NCBI GenBank assembly: GCA_030148605.1
Contig: JASBTD010000038.1
Span: forward strand, 1 to 64,000
From: Erythrobacter sp.
GTDB taxonomy: Bacteria > Pseudomonadota > Alphaproteobacteria > Sphingomonadales > Sphingomonadaceae
Length of the DNA: 64,000 bases
Direction: 5' to 3'
Part shown: in pieces, positions 49,793-58,561 of the stretch
How positions within the stretch are numbered: position 1 is the stretch's first letter
Layout of the letters: each line of letters begins with the position of its first letter
Translations under genes and position numbers: made by a program
The notes under the pieces: generated by a model
What the model saw: only the letters and a program-made list of their open reading frames with translations
Told to the model about the DNA's origin: nothing
Databases searched by the model: none

Positions 49793-50768
49793 AATTGATC
49801 CGTTCTTTCTCGATCACCAGCGGCGTGCGGCGGGTGCGTTCCGAGACGATCCGCAGATTGTCGCCGAGCAGGCCGAGAAAGCCGAACAGCAGCGCAAATT
49901 CGAACTGCACCACCGCCCCGATCAGCCAGCCGGCGATCGGGCGTCCGGCGAAGAAGGCCAGCAGCGCGCCCAGCAGCATCAGCCCGGCCATCAGCATCCC
50001 GAACACGCCGATATAGATCGGCGCGCGCAGCAGCCGCTTGGACGAGCCCGACAGCGCCGACATGGCGAAATCGAACAGCGCGAAGAAATTGTTCTTCGAT
50101 GCCCCGGCGGCGCGCGGCGGGCGGGCATAGGGGATGGCCTTGATCGCAAAGCCGGTTTCCACCAGCATGCCGCGAAAGAACGGCTCGGGCTCGGCAAGCT
50201 CGCGGGTGTAATCGACCACCCGCCGGGTGTAGAGCCCGAAGCCGGTCGCCTGCGGCACCACCGGGTAATCGCCGAAGGTCTGCGCCAGCCAGTAGGACAG
50301 GGCCCGGAACTGGCGGTGGAGAAAGCCGACCTTCTCCTCGCGCCGCACCCCCAGCACGATGTCATAGCCCTCGCGCCAGCCCGCGATCAGCTCGGGGATC
50401 AGTTCGGGCGGGTCCTGGAAATCGGCGCACAGGCCGATCACCGCCTTGCCCGATGTCTGGAAAATCGCGTGGGTGGGCGAGCGCATCTGGCCGAAATTGC
50501 GGCTGTTGACGATCAGCTTCACCCGCCGGTCGCGCGCGCAGACCTCGCGGATCAGCTCCACCGTGCGGTCGGTCGAGGCATTGTCGATCAGCACGATCTC
50601 GAAATCGTGGATGCCCAGCGCCTCGAGCTGTCCGCTCGCCGCGGCGATGATCGCCTGGGCGCTCTCTTCCTCGTTGTAGCAGGGGATGACCACCGAGATC
50701 TCCGGCGGGCTGGCGGGCCGCGGGTGGCCGGTCTCGAGCGTGCGGGCCATGGCGCTGTCCTGTTTCAT
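49773..50768 (-). CDS. GT2 family glycosyltransferase, GtrB/DPM1-like
   Basis: 331 residues. GT-A domain with ISVVIPCYNEEESAQAIIAAA, IDNASTDRT, the metal-binding DFQDPPELI, and two C-terminal membrane helices (~245-315), the architecture of bactoprenol glucosyltransferases. Makes a polyprenyl-phosphate-linked sugar from an NDP-sugar at the inner membrane. Paired with GtrA and the GT-C enzymes of this locus. Start overlaps the Wzz-like stop (ATGA). Confidence 0.92.
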   Translation of the reverse strand: MKQDSAMARTLETGHPRPASPPEISVVIPCYNEEESAQAIIAAASGQLEALGIHDFEIVLIDNASTDRTVELIREVCARDRRVKLIVNSRNFGQMRSPTHAIFQTSGKAVIGLCADFQDPPELIPELIAGWREGYDIVLGVRREEKVGFLHRQFRALSYWLAQTFGDYPVVPQATGFGLYTRRVVDYTRELAEPEPFFRGMLVETGFAIKAIPYARPPRAAGASKNNFFALFDFAMSALSGSSKRLLRAPIYIGVFGMLMAGLMLLGALLAFFAGRPIAGWLIGAVVQFEFALLFGFLGLLGDNLRIVSERTRRTPLVIEKERINFAPEDQ

Positions 50769-51874
50769 GCCGCCTCCGCCTCGCCCGCGGCCCGGCCGGT
50801 GCCGATCGGCATGCGCCAGGCGTAGAACTCGATCCCCAGCCCCAGCAGCAGCACCAGCACGGCGAGCACGCCAAAGGCGATGTTGAACTGGCGCGAGGTG
50901 TCAATGTAGGCGCTCTCGAGGATGCGGATATTGGCGGTGGAGGTCAGCTCCTCGACCGCGGCGCCTTCGAGCAGGCGCTTGTAGCTCTCGTAGAGCGACA
51001 GCGACAGGTCGAGCTCGCGGCGCAGGCGGTCCACCTCGGTGGATTCGCGCACCACCCGGCCGACCGAGTTCTCGTTGTCGGGCGAGAGCGAGCGGGCCTC
51101 GGCAAGCTGCTTGCGCAGGGCATCGATCTCGGCCTTGATCTGGCGGACGTTGAGGTGATCGTCGCTGTAGAACTCGCGCGCCGCGTTGAGCTGGGTTTCC
51201 TTGCCGATGATCATGTCTTCAAGCTGCGGCACCCGCGCGCCGATCGCGCCGATGGCGGATTCGGGCGAGCTGTAGCGGGTCCGCATCCGGAAGGTGTCGT
51301 AGCGGGCCTGCGCCTTGGCGAGCCGGTCGCTGGCATCCTCGACCAGCTCCTCGAGCACGCGGCGCTTGTAGGCGGTCTGCTCGCGCGAGACCTCGGCCAG
51401 CTCGTCGCGGATCGCCACCGCATAGGCGGCGACGATGTCATGGGCGAGATCGGCATCCTCGTTGAGCAGTTCGACCTGCACGATGCCGCCGCGCAGCGCC
51501 CGCAGATCGACTTCGCGCTCCAGCCAGCGGGTCGTGGCGACCGCGTTCATGTCGAGCCGCTCGGTGAGCTTGGCCTCCGCGATCACCTTTTCGCGCACCG
51601 CATCGCTGCGCCCGATCAGCAGGCTCACCTCGACGGCGGTCTGCTGGCCGAACACGTTCTGCACCGCGCCCAGCTGCGTGAGCGCGCTGGCGAGGCCGAG
51701 GCTGCCCGGATCGGTCGGGGTGAGGGTCACCGCCGCCCGGTATTTCTCCGGGAACAGGGTGAGCGCGACGAGGATCGCCACCAGCACCGCAAACAGCGTG
51801 CGGCGCCACAGCGGCCTGCGGATCACCGGCGCCCGGGCGAAGCTGTCGAACAGCGAAGGCGGGGGCTTGACCAT
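50765..51874 (-). CDS. GumC/Wzz-like polysaccharide copolymerase (chain-length determinant)
   Basis: 369 residues. First membrane helix (TLFAVLVAILVALTLFPEKY), a periplasmic Wzz domain, a long coiled coil (~160-300; ELAEVSREQTAYKRRVLEELVED, VDRLRRELDLSLSLYESYKRLLEG) and a second helix (IAFGVLAVLVLLLGLGIEFY). There is no fused tyrosine kinase domain. Controls chain length and couples to the export channel encoded next to it; the genes share one base (TGATG). Confidence 0.92.
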   Translation of the reverse strand: MVKPPPSLFDSFARAPVIRRPLWRRTLFAVLVAILVALTLFPEKYRAAVTLTPTDPGSLGLASALTQLGAVQNVFGQQTAVEVSLLIGRSDAVREKVIAEAKLTERLDMNAVATTRWLEREVDLRALRGGIVQVELLNEDADLAHDIVAAYAVAIRDELAEVSREQTAYKRRVLEELVEDASDRLAKAQARYDTFRMRTRYSSPESAIGAIGARVPQLEDMIIGKETQLNAAREFYSDDHLNVRQIKAEIDALRKQLAEARSLSPDNENSVGRVVRESTEVDRLRRELDLSLSLYESYKRLLEGAAVEELTSTANIRILESAYIDTSRQFNIAFGVLAVLVLLLGLGIEFYAWRMPIGTGRAAGEAEAA

Positions 51875-53748
51875 CAGTTCACCGCCAGCACCGTTGCCGC
51901 CGCGATGCCGAGCTGGAACAGCACGGTGCTGATCTGGGCGATCTTGGCGAGAATGTCGGTCTCGCGGGTCTTGACCGGCACGAACACCACGTCGCCCGGC
52001 AGGGCCGGGGCGGACAGGGCGCCGCGATCCTTGGTCAGCACCGCGCCATTGGCGCGCACCACGAAGATGTCGCCCTTGTCGGCGGCGTCGATGGTGCCGC
52101 CCGACAGGTCGATATATTCGCGGATGCGGCGCGGCTTGGCGCCGATCATGAACGAGCCGGGGCGATAGACCGCGCCGAACACGCCGATGCTCGACGGGCG
52201 GGGGGGAATGTAGATGCGGTCGTTGTTTTCCAGCACCAGGTTGCCCGGCGGCATGGTGTCGCTCGGGCTGATGTCGAGCACCAGGCGGCCATCGGGCTCG
52301 GTGTCGCGCAGGTTGGCAAGGAAGCTGCGCGCGGCGGTCATCTGGCGTTGCTGCTGGTCGGGCGAGACGCTGTTGTCGATGGTGACGGGCGAGGCGGCGA
52401 GGGTCAGTTCGACTTGGTCGATTGCGTAGTTGAAGCTTTCGCGCTGCTGGACGCGCACCGAGTTGCGCACCAGCTGGGTGCCATAGGGGAACGCCCGCGA
52501 GGTCAGGCCGCCGGCCTGTGCGATCACTTCGGAAAGCGGGGTCTGCGGGGGGACGTAGTAATTGCCGGGCCGTGCCACTTCGCCCTCGATCCGCACGATG
52601 ATCGATTGCCCCGCGACCGGCTGGCGCAGGCTGCCCAGTTCGAGGATCTGGACGATGTCGCCTTCCACCGCTGGAACGCGCGGGGCCTCGCCCATGGCGA
52701 TCTCGCGCGGGCCGGGCTCACCCTCGGGCACGGCGCGGTAGAGTAGCAGACGCGCCGGATCGCCGAGGCTGCTCACCCCGCCGGCCAGCGCCACCATGTC
52801 GGCGAGCGTCTCGCCCGCGCGCAGTTCGAAGATCGCCTCGTTGTTGGCGCTGCCGAAAACCGCCACCTGCCGCCCCACCGGGGGGATAAGCAGGACGTCC
52901 TCGTTCTCGAGCACGAAATCGTTGAGCCGGTTGCCGCCGAGCAGCAGTTCGTAAAGGTCGAAGGTGCCGAATTCGCGCCCGTCGCGGATCAGCTTGACCG
53001 AGCGCATCGAGCCCCCCGCGCTGGGCCCGCCGGCCTGCAGCACGGCATTGGCGAGGCTCGAGAGGCTCGAGACGGTGTAGGCCCCGGGATTGTTCGCGAA
53101 ACCTGTGACATAGACGCGGATGCCGCGCAGTTCCTCCACCCGCACGCCGACGCGGAAATTGCGGTACTGCGTGCCGATCGCCCGCATCATGAAGTCCTTG
53201 AGATCGCCGGTGCGTACCCCGGCGAGCTTGATCATGCCGACGCTGGGCAGGTAGATCTCGCCATTGGTGTCGATCGTCCGCTCGACGCTGCCTTCGACCG
53301 AGCCCGACAGCGAGATGTCGATCATGTCGCCCACGTTGAGGCGGTAGTCGGGCGGGACGGTGGCCGTGGCGGGCACCGCGAAATCGCGGTTCTCGGGCAG
53401 GATCAGATCGGCCCCGAAGACCGGCAGGCTGCGCCCGAGGACGCGCTGGACATATTTCTCGAACTCGCTCGGCTCGGCCTTTTCGAGCATGCGCCGGCTG
53501 CGATCGAGCAGGCTGTCCTCGCCAGCTTCCTCCTTGCCGGACTGGACGATGATCGAGGGATTGGCCCCGGCATCCTCGATCTCGGTCGGGCCGATGCCGG
53601 TGGAGCGTTCCGCCGGCGGGCTGTTGGATTGCCCTTCCGGGCTTTCTTCGCGCACCTGCGCGGCGGCAGGGCCGCCCGCCAGCGCCAGACCGAGCGCGCC
53701 TGCGAGCGCCAGGCTTGTGGTGAATTTCACGAAATCAGACAGGTTCAT
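51874..53748 (-). CDS. outer-membrane polysaccharide export protein (OPX/Wza type, SLBB domains)
   Basis: Starting at ATG 53748 gives a Sec signal peptide (TTSLALAGALGLALAGGPAAAQ), an acidic linker, the Poly_export domain (YRLNVGDMIDISLSGSVEGSVERTIDTNGEIYLPSVGMIKLAG, ~150-230) and several SLBB repeats (RGIRVYVTGFANNPGAYTVSS; VFGSANNEAIFELRAGETLADMVALAGG; VRIEGEVARPGNYYVPPQTPLSEVIAQAGG; IGVFGAVYRPGSFMI). There is no lipobox Cys. A hydrophobic helix ends the protein. 624 residues. The same frame stays open upstream into the HAD gene, giving the 897-residue ORF of the track. The internal signal peptide argues that the export protein is made separately. Confidence 0.88.
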   Translation of the reverse strand: MNLSDFVKFTTSLALAGALGLALAGGPAAAQVREESPEGQSNSPPAERSTGIGPTEIEDAGANPSIIVQSGKEEAGEDSLLDRSRRMLEKAEPSEFEKYVQRVLGRSLPVFGADLILPENRDFAVPATATVPPDYRLNVGDMIDISLSGSVEGSVERTIDTNGEIYLPSVGMIKLAGVRTGDLKDFMMRAIGTQYRNFRVGVRVEELRGIRVYVTGFANNPGAYTVSSLSSLANAVLQAGGPSAGGSMRSVKLIRDGREFGTFDLYELLLGGNRLNDFVLENEDVLLIPPVGRQVAVFGSANNEAIFELRAGETLADMVALAGGVSSLGDPARLLLYRAVPEGEPGPREIAMGEAPRVPAVEGDIVQILELGSLRQPVAGQSIIVRIEGEVARPGNYYVPPQTPLSEVIAQAGGLTSRAFPYGTQLVRNSVRVQQRESFNYAIDQVELTLAASPVTIDNSVSPDQQQRQMTAARSFLANLRDTEPDGRLVLDISPSDTMPPGNLVLENNDRIYIPPRPSSIGVFGAVYRPGSFMIGAKPRRIREYIDLSGGTIDAADKGDIFVVRANGAVLTKDRGALSAPALPGDVVFVPVKTRETDILAKIAQISTVLFQLGIAAATVLAVN

Positions 53749-54567
53749 TTCAAAATCCGCAGTTGTGGCTTTGCCGGGCCCACTAGCCCGACCGAAGTTG
53801 CAAGCCTGATAGCAGCCATCGCCGTCAAAACCAGCACCCCGTACGCCTATCGTCCCGCCGCCGCGATCCGCCGCGGCGGCTGGGCGAGGGGTGGGGGCGG
53901 CCGCCAGCCGCGCGTGGAGCGCCCGGGCGAGCGCCGAGCAATCGGCGAAGCGGTGCGCGGCCGGCACGCCGGCATCCGCATTGCCATAGCCATATTCGAC
54001 GAACAGGCACTCCATCCCGAGGCTGCGGGCGAGCGCGATGTCGACCTCGCTGTCGCCGACCATCACGCAGGTCTCGGCGGCAAGGCCGATCTGCCGCACC
54101 GCTTCGGCCAGCATGTCGGGCTCGGGCTTGGGCGGCAGGCGCTCCGAACTGCCGACGATGGCGGCGAAGTGATGAGCAATGCCCAGTTCGCCCAGCACCT
54201 TTTCGCACAGGTGCTGCGGCTTGTTCGAGCAGATCGCCAGCCGCAGCCCGGCCGCGCCGAGCCCGGCGAGCATCTCGGCCACCCCGGGATAGATGCTTTC
54301 CGCCGGGGTGCGGGTCGCCGCGTAGCGCTGGCGGAAGGTGGCAAGATCCGCATCGAGATCGTCGCAATCCGCGCCCAGCAACCCGCGCACCAGCGCCGCC
54401 CCGCCGAAGCTGGCGAAGGGCAGCGCCTCGGCATAGGCCATCCGCCGCGGCGAGCCGCGCTCGGCGAGCATCGCGTTGGTGATCGACAGCGACATCGGCA
54501 CACTGTCCACCAGCGTGCCGTCGAGGTCGAAGATCACTCCGGCCAGGGGTGCGCCAAGCCCGCTCAT
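53749..54567 (-). CDS. HAD-family phosphatase, reading frame open into the export gene
   Basis: HAD hydrolase of the Gph/PGMB type: motif I GVIFDLDGTLVDSVPMSL, motif II ICSNKP, motif III Lys in LPPKPEPDM, motif IV VMVGDSEVDIALARSLG. The domain ends near residue 218 (ARALHARLAAAP). No stop follows: about 55 codons of non-domain sequence continue in frame into the OPX gene. It could dephosphorylate a sugar phosphate in the deoxysugar or NeuB-like pathway. Start overlaps the TPP-enzyme stop (ATGA). The true C-terminus is unclear. Confidence 0.75.
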
Positions 54568-56417
54568 TCCTGCAGCGGGATCAGCATGTTCTCGAGCAGT
54601 TCCTCGTGCGGGAGGAACGGCGAGAGATCTTCGAGTGGCGCGGTCACCATCGTCCCGTCGGGCAAGCGCTTGGAGGACAGCTTGGGGGCGAAGTTTTGCT
54701 CCTTGTCGACCATCACCTCGCAGATTGCCGGGCCAGGCGCGGAGAGCGTCTCGGCGATGGCGGCGGCGATGTCAGAATGGTCGCTGGTGCGGCGATAGGC
54801 AAAGCCGAAGGCGGCCGCGACCTTGCCGAAATCGGGGAAGGTCACGCCCGAATCCGGCCCGCAGCCGACCGAGAAGCCGTTGAAATGGGCCTGCTGCGAC
54901 TGGCGGATCGAGTGGTAGCCGGAATTGTTGTAGAGGAAGATCTTGGCCGGGATGTTCTGCCCGACGATGGTCTGCAATTCCTGCAGGTTCTGCATGATCG
55001 AACCATCGCCGGCCATGCAGATGATCCGCTGCGAGCCTTCCGGCATGGCATGCCAGGCGCCGATCGTGGCGGGCAGGTCATAGCCCATCGAGGCCGCGCC
55101 CGAGTTCGAATAGAGCCGCTGCCCGCGCTTCAGCCGCGCGGCCTGCACCGTTACCACCGCGGCGGTGGCATCGGCCATGACGATCACCTCGTTTTCTGCC
55201 AGTTGTTCGAACAGCACCTCGGTGAAGCAATAGGGGTTCACCACGCAGGTGGTCTGCCAGTATTCGGGCAGCACCGGGTAGTAGCGCCGTCGCCGCTCCA
55301 TCGCCCAGGCGAGGTATTCGCCATGCGCGGCCGGGGCCTGGTAGCCGTCTAGCGCCCGTTCGAGCGCGGGCAGGAAATCCCTGAGGTCGGCATGCACCGG
55401 CATGTCGATCGACAGGGTCGGCTTGGCGAGTTCGGCGGCATCGACATCGACCATGATCTTCTTCGCCGCGCGCGCGAAGGCGGCGAAATTGTAGCTGATC
55501 TGGCGGATGTTGAGGCGGCAGCCGAGCACCAGCACGCAGTCGGCGTTCTGCACCGCGAAATTGCCCCCCCGGTCGCCCACCGTGCCGGGGCGGCCTACAT
55601 AGAGCGGGTGGTCGTCCTCGACGACGTCCTGCGCGTTCCAGGCCGGGGCGATCGGGATGCCAAGCTTTTCGACGATCCGGCGGAAAGTTTCATATTCCCC
55701 GCTGATCCGCACCCCCGTGCCGGGTAGCAGCACCGGACGCTCGGCCGCGGCGATCGCCGCGACCACCCCGCGCGCCGCCGCATCGAGCGCTTCGCCGCGC
55801 AGCCAGCCATATTCGGCCGGCAGGGCGAAGGGCCGGCCATAGCCCTCGCGCACCGGGTCGAAGCCGTGCAGCGTGTCGGGATCGATCGGCGCGGCCTGGA
55901 TGTCGATCGGGATGTCGAGCCACACCGGGCCGGGCCGCCCGGTCTCGGCCAGCCACAGCGCCTTTTCCAGGAGGTAGCGGATGTCCGCCGGGTCCATCAC
56001 CGTCACCGCGAACTTGGTGATCGGCGTGACCATGGCGACGATGTCGACCTCCTGGTCGCCGAGTTGGCGCAGCCGGGTGGGCGCGCGGTGCGCCATGGTC
56101 TCGCGCTTGACCTGTCCGGAGACGACCAGCATCGGGATCGAGTCGGTATAGGCGCCGTGCACGCCATTCAGGGCATTGATCCCGCCCGGGCCGGTGGTGA
56201 CATTGACCACCGGCAGCCGGCCCGACAGGCGGGCATAGCTTTCTGCCGCCATGGCGAGCGCCTGTTCGTGATGGCAGCACACATAGCGCAGCCGGTCGAC
56301 CCGGCCCAGCGCATCGTTGAGATGCATCGCGCCGCCGCCGGTTAGCATGAAGACGTGGCGTACTCCGTGATCGGCCAACCGCAGGGCAACGTAATCGGAC
56401 AGGCGCACCTTGGCCAT
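54564..56417 (-). CDS. thiamine-diphosphate-dependent enzyme, acetolactate-synthase-like, sugar locus
   Basis: 617 residues in the usual three domains. N-terminal PYR domain with the catalytic Glu in CCHHEQALAMAAESYARLSG and TTGPGGINALNGV; central domain (~200-340) with GTGVRISG; C-terminal PP domain with SNSGAASMGYDLPATIGAW and the ThDP/Mg motif GDGSIMQNLQEL...NNSGY. Acetolactate synthases act on pyruvate, but within an rfbFGH cluster the better analogy is YerE, which adds a two-carbon unit to a CDP-3,6-dideoxy-4-keto sugar. The FAD site was not assessed. ATG 56417 is preferred to the GTG 56423. Confidence 0.88.
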   Translation of the reverse strand: MAKVRLSDYVALRLADHGVRHVFMLTGGGAMHLNDALGRVDRLRYVCCHHEQALAMAAESYARLSGRLPVVNVTTGPGGINALNGVHGAYTDSIPMLVVSGQVKRETMAHRAPTRLRQLGDQEVDIVAMVTPITKFAVTVMDPADIRYLLEKALWLAETGRPGPVWLDIPIDIQAAPIDPDTLHGFDPVREGYGRPFALPAEYGWLRGEALDAAARGVVAAIAAAERPVLLPGTGVRISGEYETFRRIVEKLGIPIAPAWNAQDVVEDDHPLYVGRPGTVGDRGGNFAVQNADCVLVLGCRLNIRQISYNFAAFARAAKKIMVDVDAAELAKPTLSIDMPVHADLRDFLPALERALDGYQAPAAHGEYLAWAMERRRRYYPVLPEYWQTTCVVNPYCFTEVLFEQLAENEVIVMADATAAVVTVQAARLKRGQRLYSNSGAASMGYDLPATIGAWHAMPEGSQRIICMAGDGSIMQNLQELQTIVGQNIPAKIFLYNNSGYHSIRQSQQAHFNGFSVGCGPDSGVTFPDFGKVAAAFGFAYRRTSDHSDIAAAIAETLSAPGPAICEVMVDKEQNFAPKLSSKRLPDGTMVTAPLEDLSPFLPHEELLENMLIPLQE

Positions 56418-56486
56418 TCTCACCGCATTCCTTCAATAATCGGGCTCGCGCACCCGCCGGGCGCGCGAGCCCTGCAAGCCGCTCGG

Positions 56487-57614
56487 TCAGCCGGCCGCGC
56501 CGGCCTTGACCATTTCCAGTTCGGGCAGATCGCGGGCGAGGCCGCGGGTCGGCACCAGCGCGACCACCTCGGGATCGTTGCTGTAGCTGGCCGAGATGTC
56601 CTCGAGCAGCACCGGGGCATGGGCCGGCAGCGGCGCCTGGAGCGCTTCGCCGGTCTCGAACTCGCGGGTCGAGATCTGGCCCTGCAGCAGCGGGATCGCG
56701 AAATAGACGTCATCGGCGGTCAGCACCTGGCCGGCCGGCAGGTCGCGCTTGGCATAGACGCCGCGCACCAGCGCATCGAGATATTCGCGCTCGCCCTTGG
56801 GCACCTCGCGCCGCACCGTCGCCTGGCCGCCGCACATTTCCTTGGCCTTGTGGAAGGCCTTGAACCACACGTCGGCCTGTTCGGGACGGGTGCAGTAGGG
56901 GCTGACCGGCACGCCTTCGTAGTCGATGTCGATGTGCCGCTCGAAGGTGCGCGCGCCCTTGCCGTAGGCGATCAGGATCGAATCGTGCCAGTCGCGCTGT
57001 TCGTGGGTCGACAGGCCGATGGTGATGCCTGGGTAGCGCGCCTTCAGGTAATCGATCTGGTTGAGCTCGAGATCGCTGTCTTCCGACGGGTAGAGCGACA
57101 CGCAGTGGTTGAGCGCGAAGGGGATGTTGCGCGAGGTAAAGAACTCCACCAGGTTGTCGAGGTGATGCTCGCCCGCGCCGCCCGAGGAGGCGATCACCGG
57201 CTTACCAGTCGAGGCCATCTTGCGCAGCAGGGTCTTGTCGCGGATGTCGGAGCTCGCAATCTTGAGGATGTCGACGCCGAATTCGACGCACTTGTCGACC
57301 GAGACCTCGTCGAAAGGGGTTGCCATCGTGAGCATCCCCTTGGCCCGGGTCGCCTCGACCATCTTGCGCAGCTGCTCCCACGGCATCTGGGTCGCCAGCG
57401 TCTTCTTGATGTAGCGCACATCCGAGCTGTCCCGGTAATCTTTGTGGACGAAATTGTCGACGTCGCGGAACTGCAGCTTGATCGAAGCCTTCACCCCATT
57501 GCGCGCAACGACTTCGGCAAAGTCATCGATTATCTTCATGCCACGCTCGATCTTGCCCCAATGATTATTGGCAAGCTCAAGCACGAAAAGATCATCAAAA
57601 ATCGCATTTGTCAT
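56487..57614 (-). CDS. NeuB-family sugar-acid synthase with SAF domain
   Basis: 375 residues. N-terminal TIM barrel with LELANNHWGKIERGMKIIDDF, ASIKLQFRDVDNF, MATPFDEVSVD, DILKIASSDIRD, IASSGGA and ALNHCVSLYPSEDSDLELN, followed by a C-terminal SAF/antifreeze-like domain (VYAKRDLPAGQVLTADDVYFAIPL). NeuB enzymes join phosphoenolpyruvate to an aldose (e.g. ManNAc) to make nonulosonic acids. The acceptor here is unknown; no CMP-sugar synthetase or N-acetylhexosamine epimerase is visible in the window. 5' end is AT-richer than the rest. Confidence 0.87.
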   Translation of the reverse strand: MTNAIFDDLFVLELANNHWGKIERGMKIIDDFAEVVARNGVKASIKLQFRDVDNFVHKDYRDSSDVRYIKKTLATQMPWEQLRKMVEATRAKGMLTMATPFDEVSVDKCVEFGVDILKIASSDIRDKTLLRKMASTGKPVIASSGGAGEHHLDNLVEFFTSRNIPFALNHCVSLYPSEDSDLELNQIDYLKARYPGITIGLSTHEQRDWHDSILIAYGKGARTFERHIDIDYEGVPVSPYCTRPEQADVWFKAFHKAKEMCGGQATVRREVPKGEREYLDALVRGVYAKRDLPAGQVLTADDVYFAIPLLQGQISTREFETGEALQAPLPAHAPVLLEDISASYSNDPEVVALVPTRGLARDLPELEMVKAGAAG

Positions 57615-57661: not shown

Positions 57662-58561
57662 TCAGTGGCTTGTCTGCCTAAGCCATGCCACGGTGTCTGA
57701 TACGCATTGATCGGCACAGCGAAGCTCGGTCGCTGTCTGGATGGCGAGAGTTTTCGTATCGGGAAAATGGCCGAGATAGGCGCTCGGGCGCTCCACGTTC
57801 ACATCACCCCGTTCGATTGCAATGTCCTCCCCGAGCGCATCACGAACCTTGCGCGCTATATCCTCCATCTCGAGCACTTCTGCACCGCACAAATCGATCG
57901 CGCGGCTCCGTCCGATTAACGCCAGTCCCGCATTTAGCACCAGCCGGCACAGATCGTCCACATGGATAAGGGAACGGAAAACAGGAATTTGCGCGCTAAT
58001 CGAAATCCGCCGCGAGCGCAAAGCCTGCTGAATAAAATTCGAAACCGCGTAGGACTCCAGCTTGTTTACATAGGGGCCGGCGATGTTGAAAATCCGCCCT
58101 GTGAGCACCGGAAACCCAGCTGCCTCGCCCCGGGCCAGAAAGCGCGCCTCCTGCCGTAGCTTGGCTATGCCGTAGGGATGAAGATCAACCCCCTCGGCCG
58201 CCAGCTTGGCCGCGCCCGAAGAGGCGACGAAGACGCTCGCCGGACGGCCTTCGCAGGCGGCCAGCACCGTGTCATCAATGGCAAGGTTGGTATCGAAAAA
58301 GACCCGCTCGCCAAGCTTTTCGGCCTTTTCCTTGGTGAGGTAGGCAAGGTGCACAAGGTGGGCGCCCGCCACATCGTCCGGCCGGATCGCGTCAAGCTCA
58401 CGCACAGGCAAGGTGCCGCCTCCGGGCAGGGCCAGCGCACGCGCGGTCGAGCCGAAGAGCGCCACACGGTCAGCAAGACCTTCGCCCCAACGCGCCGCGG
58501 CATGCGCCAGCAGCGCCTGTCCGATCCAGCCGGTCGGCCCGGTGATGACAAGGCGCTGCAT
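57662..58561 (-). CDS. NAD(P)-dependent epimerase/dehydratase (extended SDR)
   Basis: 299 residues. Rossmann start LVITGPTGWIGQALLAHAA (GxxGxxG), Ser in FVASSGAAKL, YxxxK in HPYGIAKLRQEARFL, and substrate-domain RIFNIAGPYVNKLESYAVSNFIQQAL. Probably reduces or epimerises the keto sugar made by RfbGH and perhaps branched by the ThDP enzyme, a role like YerF or Abe/Prt/Tyv; the exact reaction cannot be read. Between the NeuB-like and rfbH genes on the same strand. Confidence 0.88.
   Translation of the reverse strand: MQRLVITGPTGWIGQALLAHAAARWGEGLADRVALFGSTARALALPGGGTLPVRELDAIRPDDVAGAHLVHLAYLTKEKAEKLGERVFFDTNLAIDDTVLAACEGRPASVFVASSGAAKLAAEGVDLHPYGIAKLRQEARFLARGEAAGFPVLTGRIFNIAGPYVNKLESYAVSNFIQQALRSRRISISAQIPVFRSLIHVDDLCRLVLNAGLALIGRSRAIDLCGAEVLEMEDIARKVRDALGEDIAIERGDVNVERPSAYLGHFPDTKTLAIQTATELRCADQCVSDTVAWLRQTSH

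Follow-up and report, generated by a model that had tools for sequence, protein, structure and literature searches.

A HAD phosphatase gene and a polysaccharide export gene in one open frame of Erythrobacter sp. are very probably two neighbouring genes with a lost stop codon

In the 64,000-nucleotide stretch of Erythrobacter sp. DNA analysed here (contig JASBTD010000038.1 of assembly GCA_030148605.1; hereafter the window), a HAD-family phosphatase and an outer-membrane polysaccharide export (OPX) protein are encoded in a single open frame, raising the question of whether the organism has a new fused protein or two ordinary genes from which the intervening stop codon has disappeared. The frame itself is as a sequence-only reading had described it, a single open reading frame (ORF) of 897 codons at 51874-54567 on the minus strand, and the deposited sequence bears out its remark that the HAD protein can end only as part of the export protein. 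The minus-strand frame carrying both parts is stop-free over 965 codons, and no stop codon is present in it between residues 190 and 300. In a Pfam scan of the 897-codon ORF, HAD_2 spans residues 11-190 and Poly_export 403-477, and several SLBB domains follow from 484 onwards. The features of the locus are collected in Table 1.

Table 1. Features of the HAD-OPX locus (positions are those of the window)
Feature	Position	Strand	Basis or remark
HAD, linker and OPX as one open frame, 897 codons	51874..54567	-	ORF listing
HAD-family hydrolase, phosphoglycolate-phosphatase-like	53905..54567	-	residues 1-221; profile matches, alignment to relatives
Linker, residues 222-273; very GC-rich at its start	53749..53904	-	no clear coding signal in any frame
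Outer-membrane polysaccharide export protein (Poly_export + SLBB), 624 aa	51874..53748	-	profile matches; signal peptide, AxAQ-type cleavage site
Acetolactate-synthase-like TPP enzyme, upstream operon gene	54564..56423	-	stop overlaps HAD start
Chain-length determinant (Wzz/BexC-like), downstream operon gene	50765..51874	-	start overlaps OPX stop

The first part of the ORF contains a complete HAD hydrolase domain (residues ~10-200; HAD_2 E=6e-32), and its closest structures in the PDB are HAD phosphatases. All four HAD-IA motifs (I-IV; DxDGT, S/T, K and GDxxxD) are present, and in the alignment with relatives they are conserved as DLDGT, SNK, KP and GDSEVD. The best NCBIfam models are PGP_bact and HAD-IA, and the scores against the broad HAD-IA subfamily models exceed their cut-offs. 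The protein thus shares the complete HAD_2 domain and all four motifs with the phosphoglycolate phosphatase/HAD-IA group, but differs from it in lacking a stop codon of its own and in scoring below the phosphoglycolate phosphatase equivalog cut-off (TIGR01449; 140 bits against 180). Its most likely role is that of a cytoplasmic phosphatase in the polysaccharide pathway.

The second part is a complete OPX protein, in which Poly_export is followed by SLBB and SLBB_2 domains. Its PDB relatives are Wza/PslD-type export proteins, including a sequence match to Wza (2j58), and an EpsE-like equivalog model of NCBIfam matches it below the cut-off. The ATG at 53748 corresponds to residue 274 of the ORF and opens MNLSDFVKFTTSLALAGALGLALAGGPAAAQV, a typical signal peptide. 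Poly_export, multiple SLBB domains, an N-terminal signal peptide and an adjoining chain-length determinant gene are all shared with OPX proteins of the Wza/EpsE type, whereas in the window the frame stays open upstream into the HAD gene. By inspection there is no Cys at the cleavage site, and the protein is therefore not a lipoprotein of the Wza type. By published criteria a Wza_C segment denotes Class 1 and a GfcC domain Class 2 (PMC9603273); the Pfam scan of the OPX part returns neither, yet a hydrophobic C-terminal helix is visible, and fold recognition is reported to have shifted several sequence-only Class 3 matches to Class 1 or 2 (PMC9603273). Translation of the OPX protein most likely begins at a start of its own, and its export most likely proceeds through Sec.

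Both genes lie in an operon. The TPP-enzyme ORF ends at 54564 and overlaps the HAD gene beginning at 54567, the OPX stop and the Wzz-like start have one base (51874) in common, and the Wzz-like gene in turn overlaps a glycosyltransferase gene (50765/50768). Because the gene ends overlap, the genes are very probably co-transcribed and translationally coupled. A consensus scan of 53600-54100 found no promoter- or terminator-like site between HAD and OPX. A NeuB/SAF-type synthase, the acetolactate-synthase-like TPP enzyme and the HAD phosphatase stand side by side (54564-57614), a cluster that suggests an unusual sugar or nonulosonate-like pathway.

The same locus was sought in relatives by tblastn of the window proteins on regions fetched from their genomes. 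Eleven relatives have both genes together, seven with HAD and OPX directly adjacent (G376, G381, G149, G172, G167, G638 and G668) and four with an epimerase gene between them (Sphingomonas sp. IC081, Novosphingobium clariflavum, G197 and G610). In every one of the eleven the HAD gene ends with its own stop codon (TGA or TAG), and the OPX gene lies in a frame offset by 1 or 2 from HAD and has its own start and signal peptide. The N-termini of these OPX proteins are ordinary signal peptides that end in A-Q as in the window (TAAAQ, PLAAQ, VFAQ, PAAAQ). The HAD ends of the directly adjacent relatives usually align with window residues 222-231; the value of 276 obtained for G381 results from a misplaced last residue in the alignment. 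Gene order and strand are as in the TPP enzyme - HAD - (epimerase) - OPX - Wzz - GT2 loci of the sphingomonads IC081 and N. clariflavum, which differ from the window in the epimerase between HAD and OPX and in a HAD gene that ends with its own stop. The sequence-only reading had proposed comparing the same gene pair in relatives, and a stop codon between the domains, which the relatives have, is half of the condition that it had set for refuting its observation.

Two further features of the locus vary among these genomes. In a comparison of 54564-57614 with L069 and L070, the TPP and NeuB-like proteins are 79-84% identical to those of G172 and G167, whereas the window HAD shares only 34-36% identity with its counterpart in the same place there, and 43-50% with the HAD of genomes in which the TPP enzyme matches at only ~60% identity. 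The locus looks mosaic, and these identities suggest that the HAD segment, perhaps also OPX, may have been replaced at the TPP/HAD boundary. The epimerase/SDR gene changes place as well, lying upstream of NeuB/TPP in the window (57662-58561) and between HAD and OPX in IC081, N. clariflavum, G197 and G610 (L005 4656-5717); the two versions are only ~34-38% identical.

Since relatives with the same operon keep separate genes, the locus very probably consists of two ordinary exopolysaccharide-operon genes, a cytoplasmic HAD phosphatase and, next to it, an exported Wza-type OPX protein, rather than of a new fused protein; the stop between them would have been lost in the organism itself or only in its assembly. 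On this explanation the most likely reason for the missing HAD stop is a small indel in the very GC-rich 3' end of the gene, whether a real recent mutation or a draft error, and translation of OPX, signal peptide included, would start internally at the ATG at 53748. Should the loss be real, ribosomes that reach the end of HAD would continue into the OPX frame and yield some HAD-OPX fusion as a by-product. What points the other way is the variable length of the HAD tail. In G149 the tail exceeds that of relatives by about 22 residues, with a stop only a few bases short of the OPX ATG (L064 4843-5005), so that HAD tails can drift towards the OPX start, and a gradual, real extension of the HAD gene is possible. 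In the same genome the OPX frame is open well into HAD.

The composition of the junction is consistent with two genes. Measured in the ORF frame, codon log-odds stand at about 1.0 for residues 171-201, fade at about 219 and reach about 0.1 by 219-233; over residues 227-273 they are around or below zero, with GC3 of 0.40-0.73, before returning to about 0.6-0.7 at the OPX start. Neither of the other frames has a clear coding signal across the linker. We reject a coding linker on these log-odds and GC3 values, and residues ~222-273 are probably the former HAD tail and an intergenic leader. The openness of the linker needs no special explanation and is no evidence of coding, because 55 codons of its dinucleotide composition are stop-free with a probability of about 0.37, and across all frames of the window a fraction of about 0.32 of stretches of that length is open. 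Entry into the OPX frame after loss of the stop, 0.37 x 1/3 for the frame, would occur about one time in eight. The only unusual feature is the missing HAD stop.

How the stop was lost is constrained by the codons around its usual place. Between 212 and 251 no codon of the frame lies a single substitution away from a stop, which disfavours a point mutation there, whereas the other two minus-strand frames run into stops, at codons 240 and 247 and again further on; we infer that the cause is probably a small indel near residues 218-240. The HAD 3' end near 53845-53905 is a tract of 82-91% GC (~90%) with C runs, and such tracts are prone to real slippage and sequencing error alike. The stop may therefore be absent purely through a base-calling or assembly error near 53845-53905, the organism having two genes; the GC-rich tract, the indel-like change needed, the 66-contig draft state of the genome and the stop in all relatives with both genes favour this, and we regard its chances as even. 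That the loss is instead a real recent mutation of the lineage, with OPX starting internally and a read-through product tolerated, agrees with a frame intact in both domains, with the HAD motifs kept in alignment with relatives, and with the G149 tail that extends to the OPX start; however, it is seen in no other genome searched and an error accounts for the open frame equally well, and we consider it possible but lean slightly against it. Of the three options offered by the sequence-only reading (internal start, lost stop, sequencing error), the relatives add weight to an internal OPX start at 53748 and to an absent HAD stop, while real loss and assembly error are not distinguishable from the assembly. 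Nor do the relatives date the loss, as the nearest are only about 43-60% identical.

A functional, lineage-specific fusion, in which the OPX signal sequence would tether HAD at the inner membrane, either as an anchored enzyme or with signal peptidase releasing OPX, would make use of the fully open frame, the intact internal signal sequence and the cleavage motif, which is kept as in relatives. A true gene fusion would be conserved in relatives and have a coding linker, but the linker lacks a clear coding signal, and no match contains both domains among those listed for the whole protein against 114 genus, 301 family and 401 order genomes. Among plasmid records none spans 80% of the whole protein, the matches listed there being to OPX only, and none of the papers listed in literature searches describes a HAD-OPX fusion in its title or abstract. 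As the two genes are separate, and in different frames, in every relative found to have both, we reject a functional fusion, which we consider very improbable. The sequence-only reading held that a fusion would be mislocalised, but this does not necessarily follow: an internal signal sequence could still enter the Sec pathway and undergo cleavage by signal peptidase, and such a sequence can act as a signal-anchor. Nothing indicates that the fusion is functional.

The two-gene reading has its most direct bearing on annotation. An automatic gene caller would give a spurious 897-residue HAD-OPX fusion at this locus and miss the OPX signal peptide. Nothing points to a new mechanism. If the loss of the stop is real, the locus would be a small natural example of a gene fusion in an early state.
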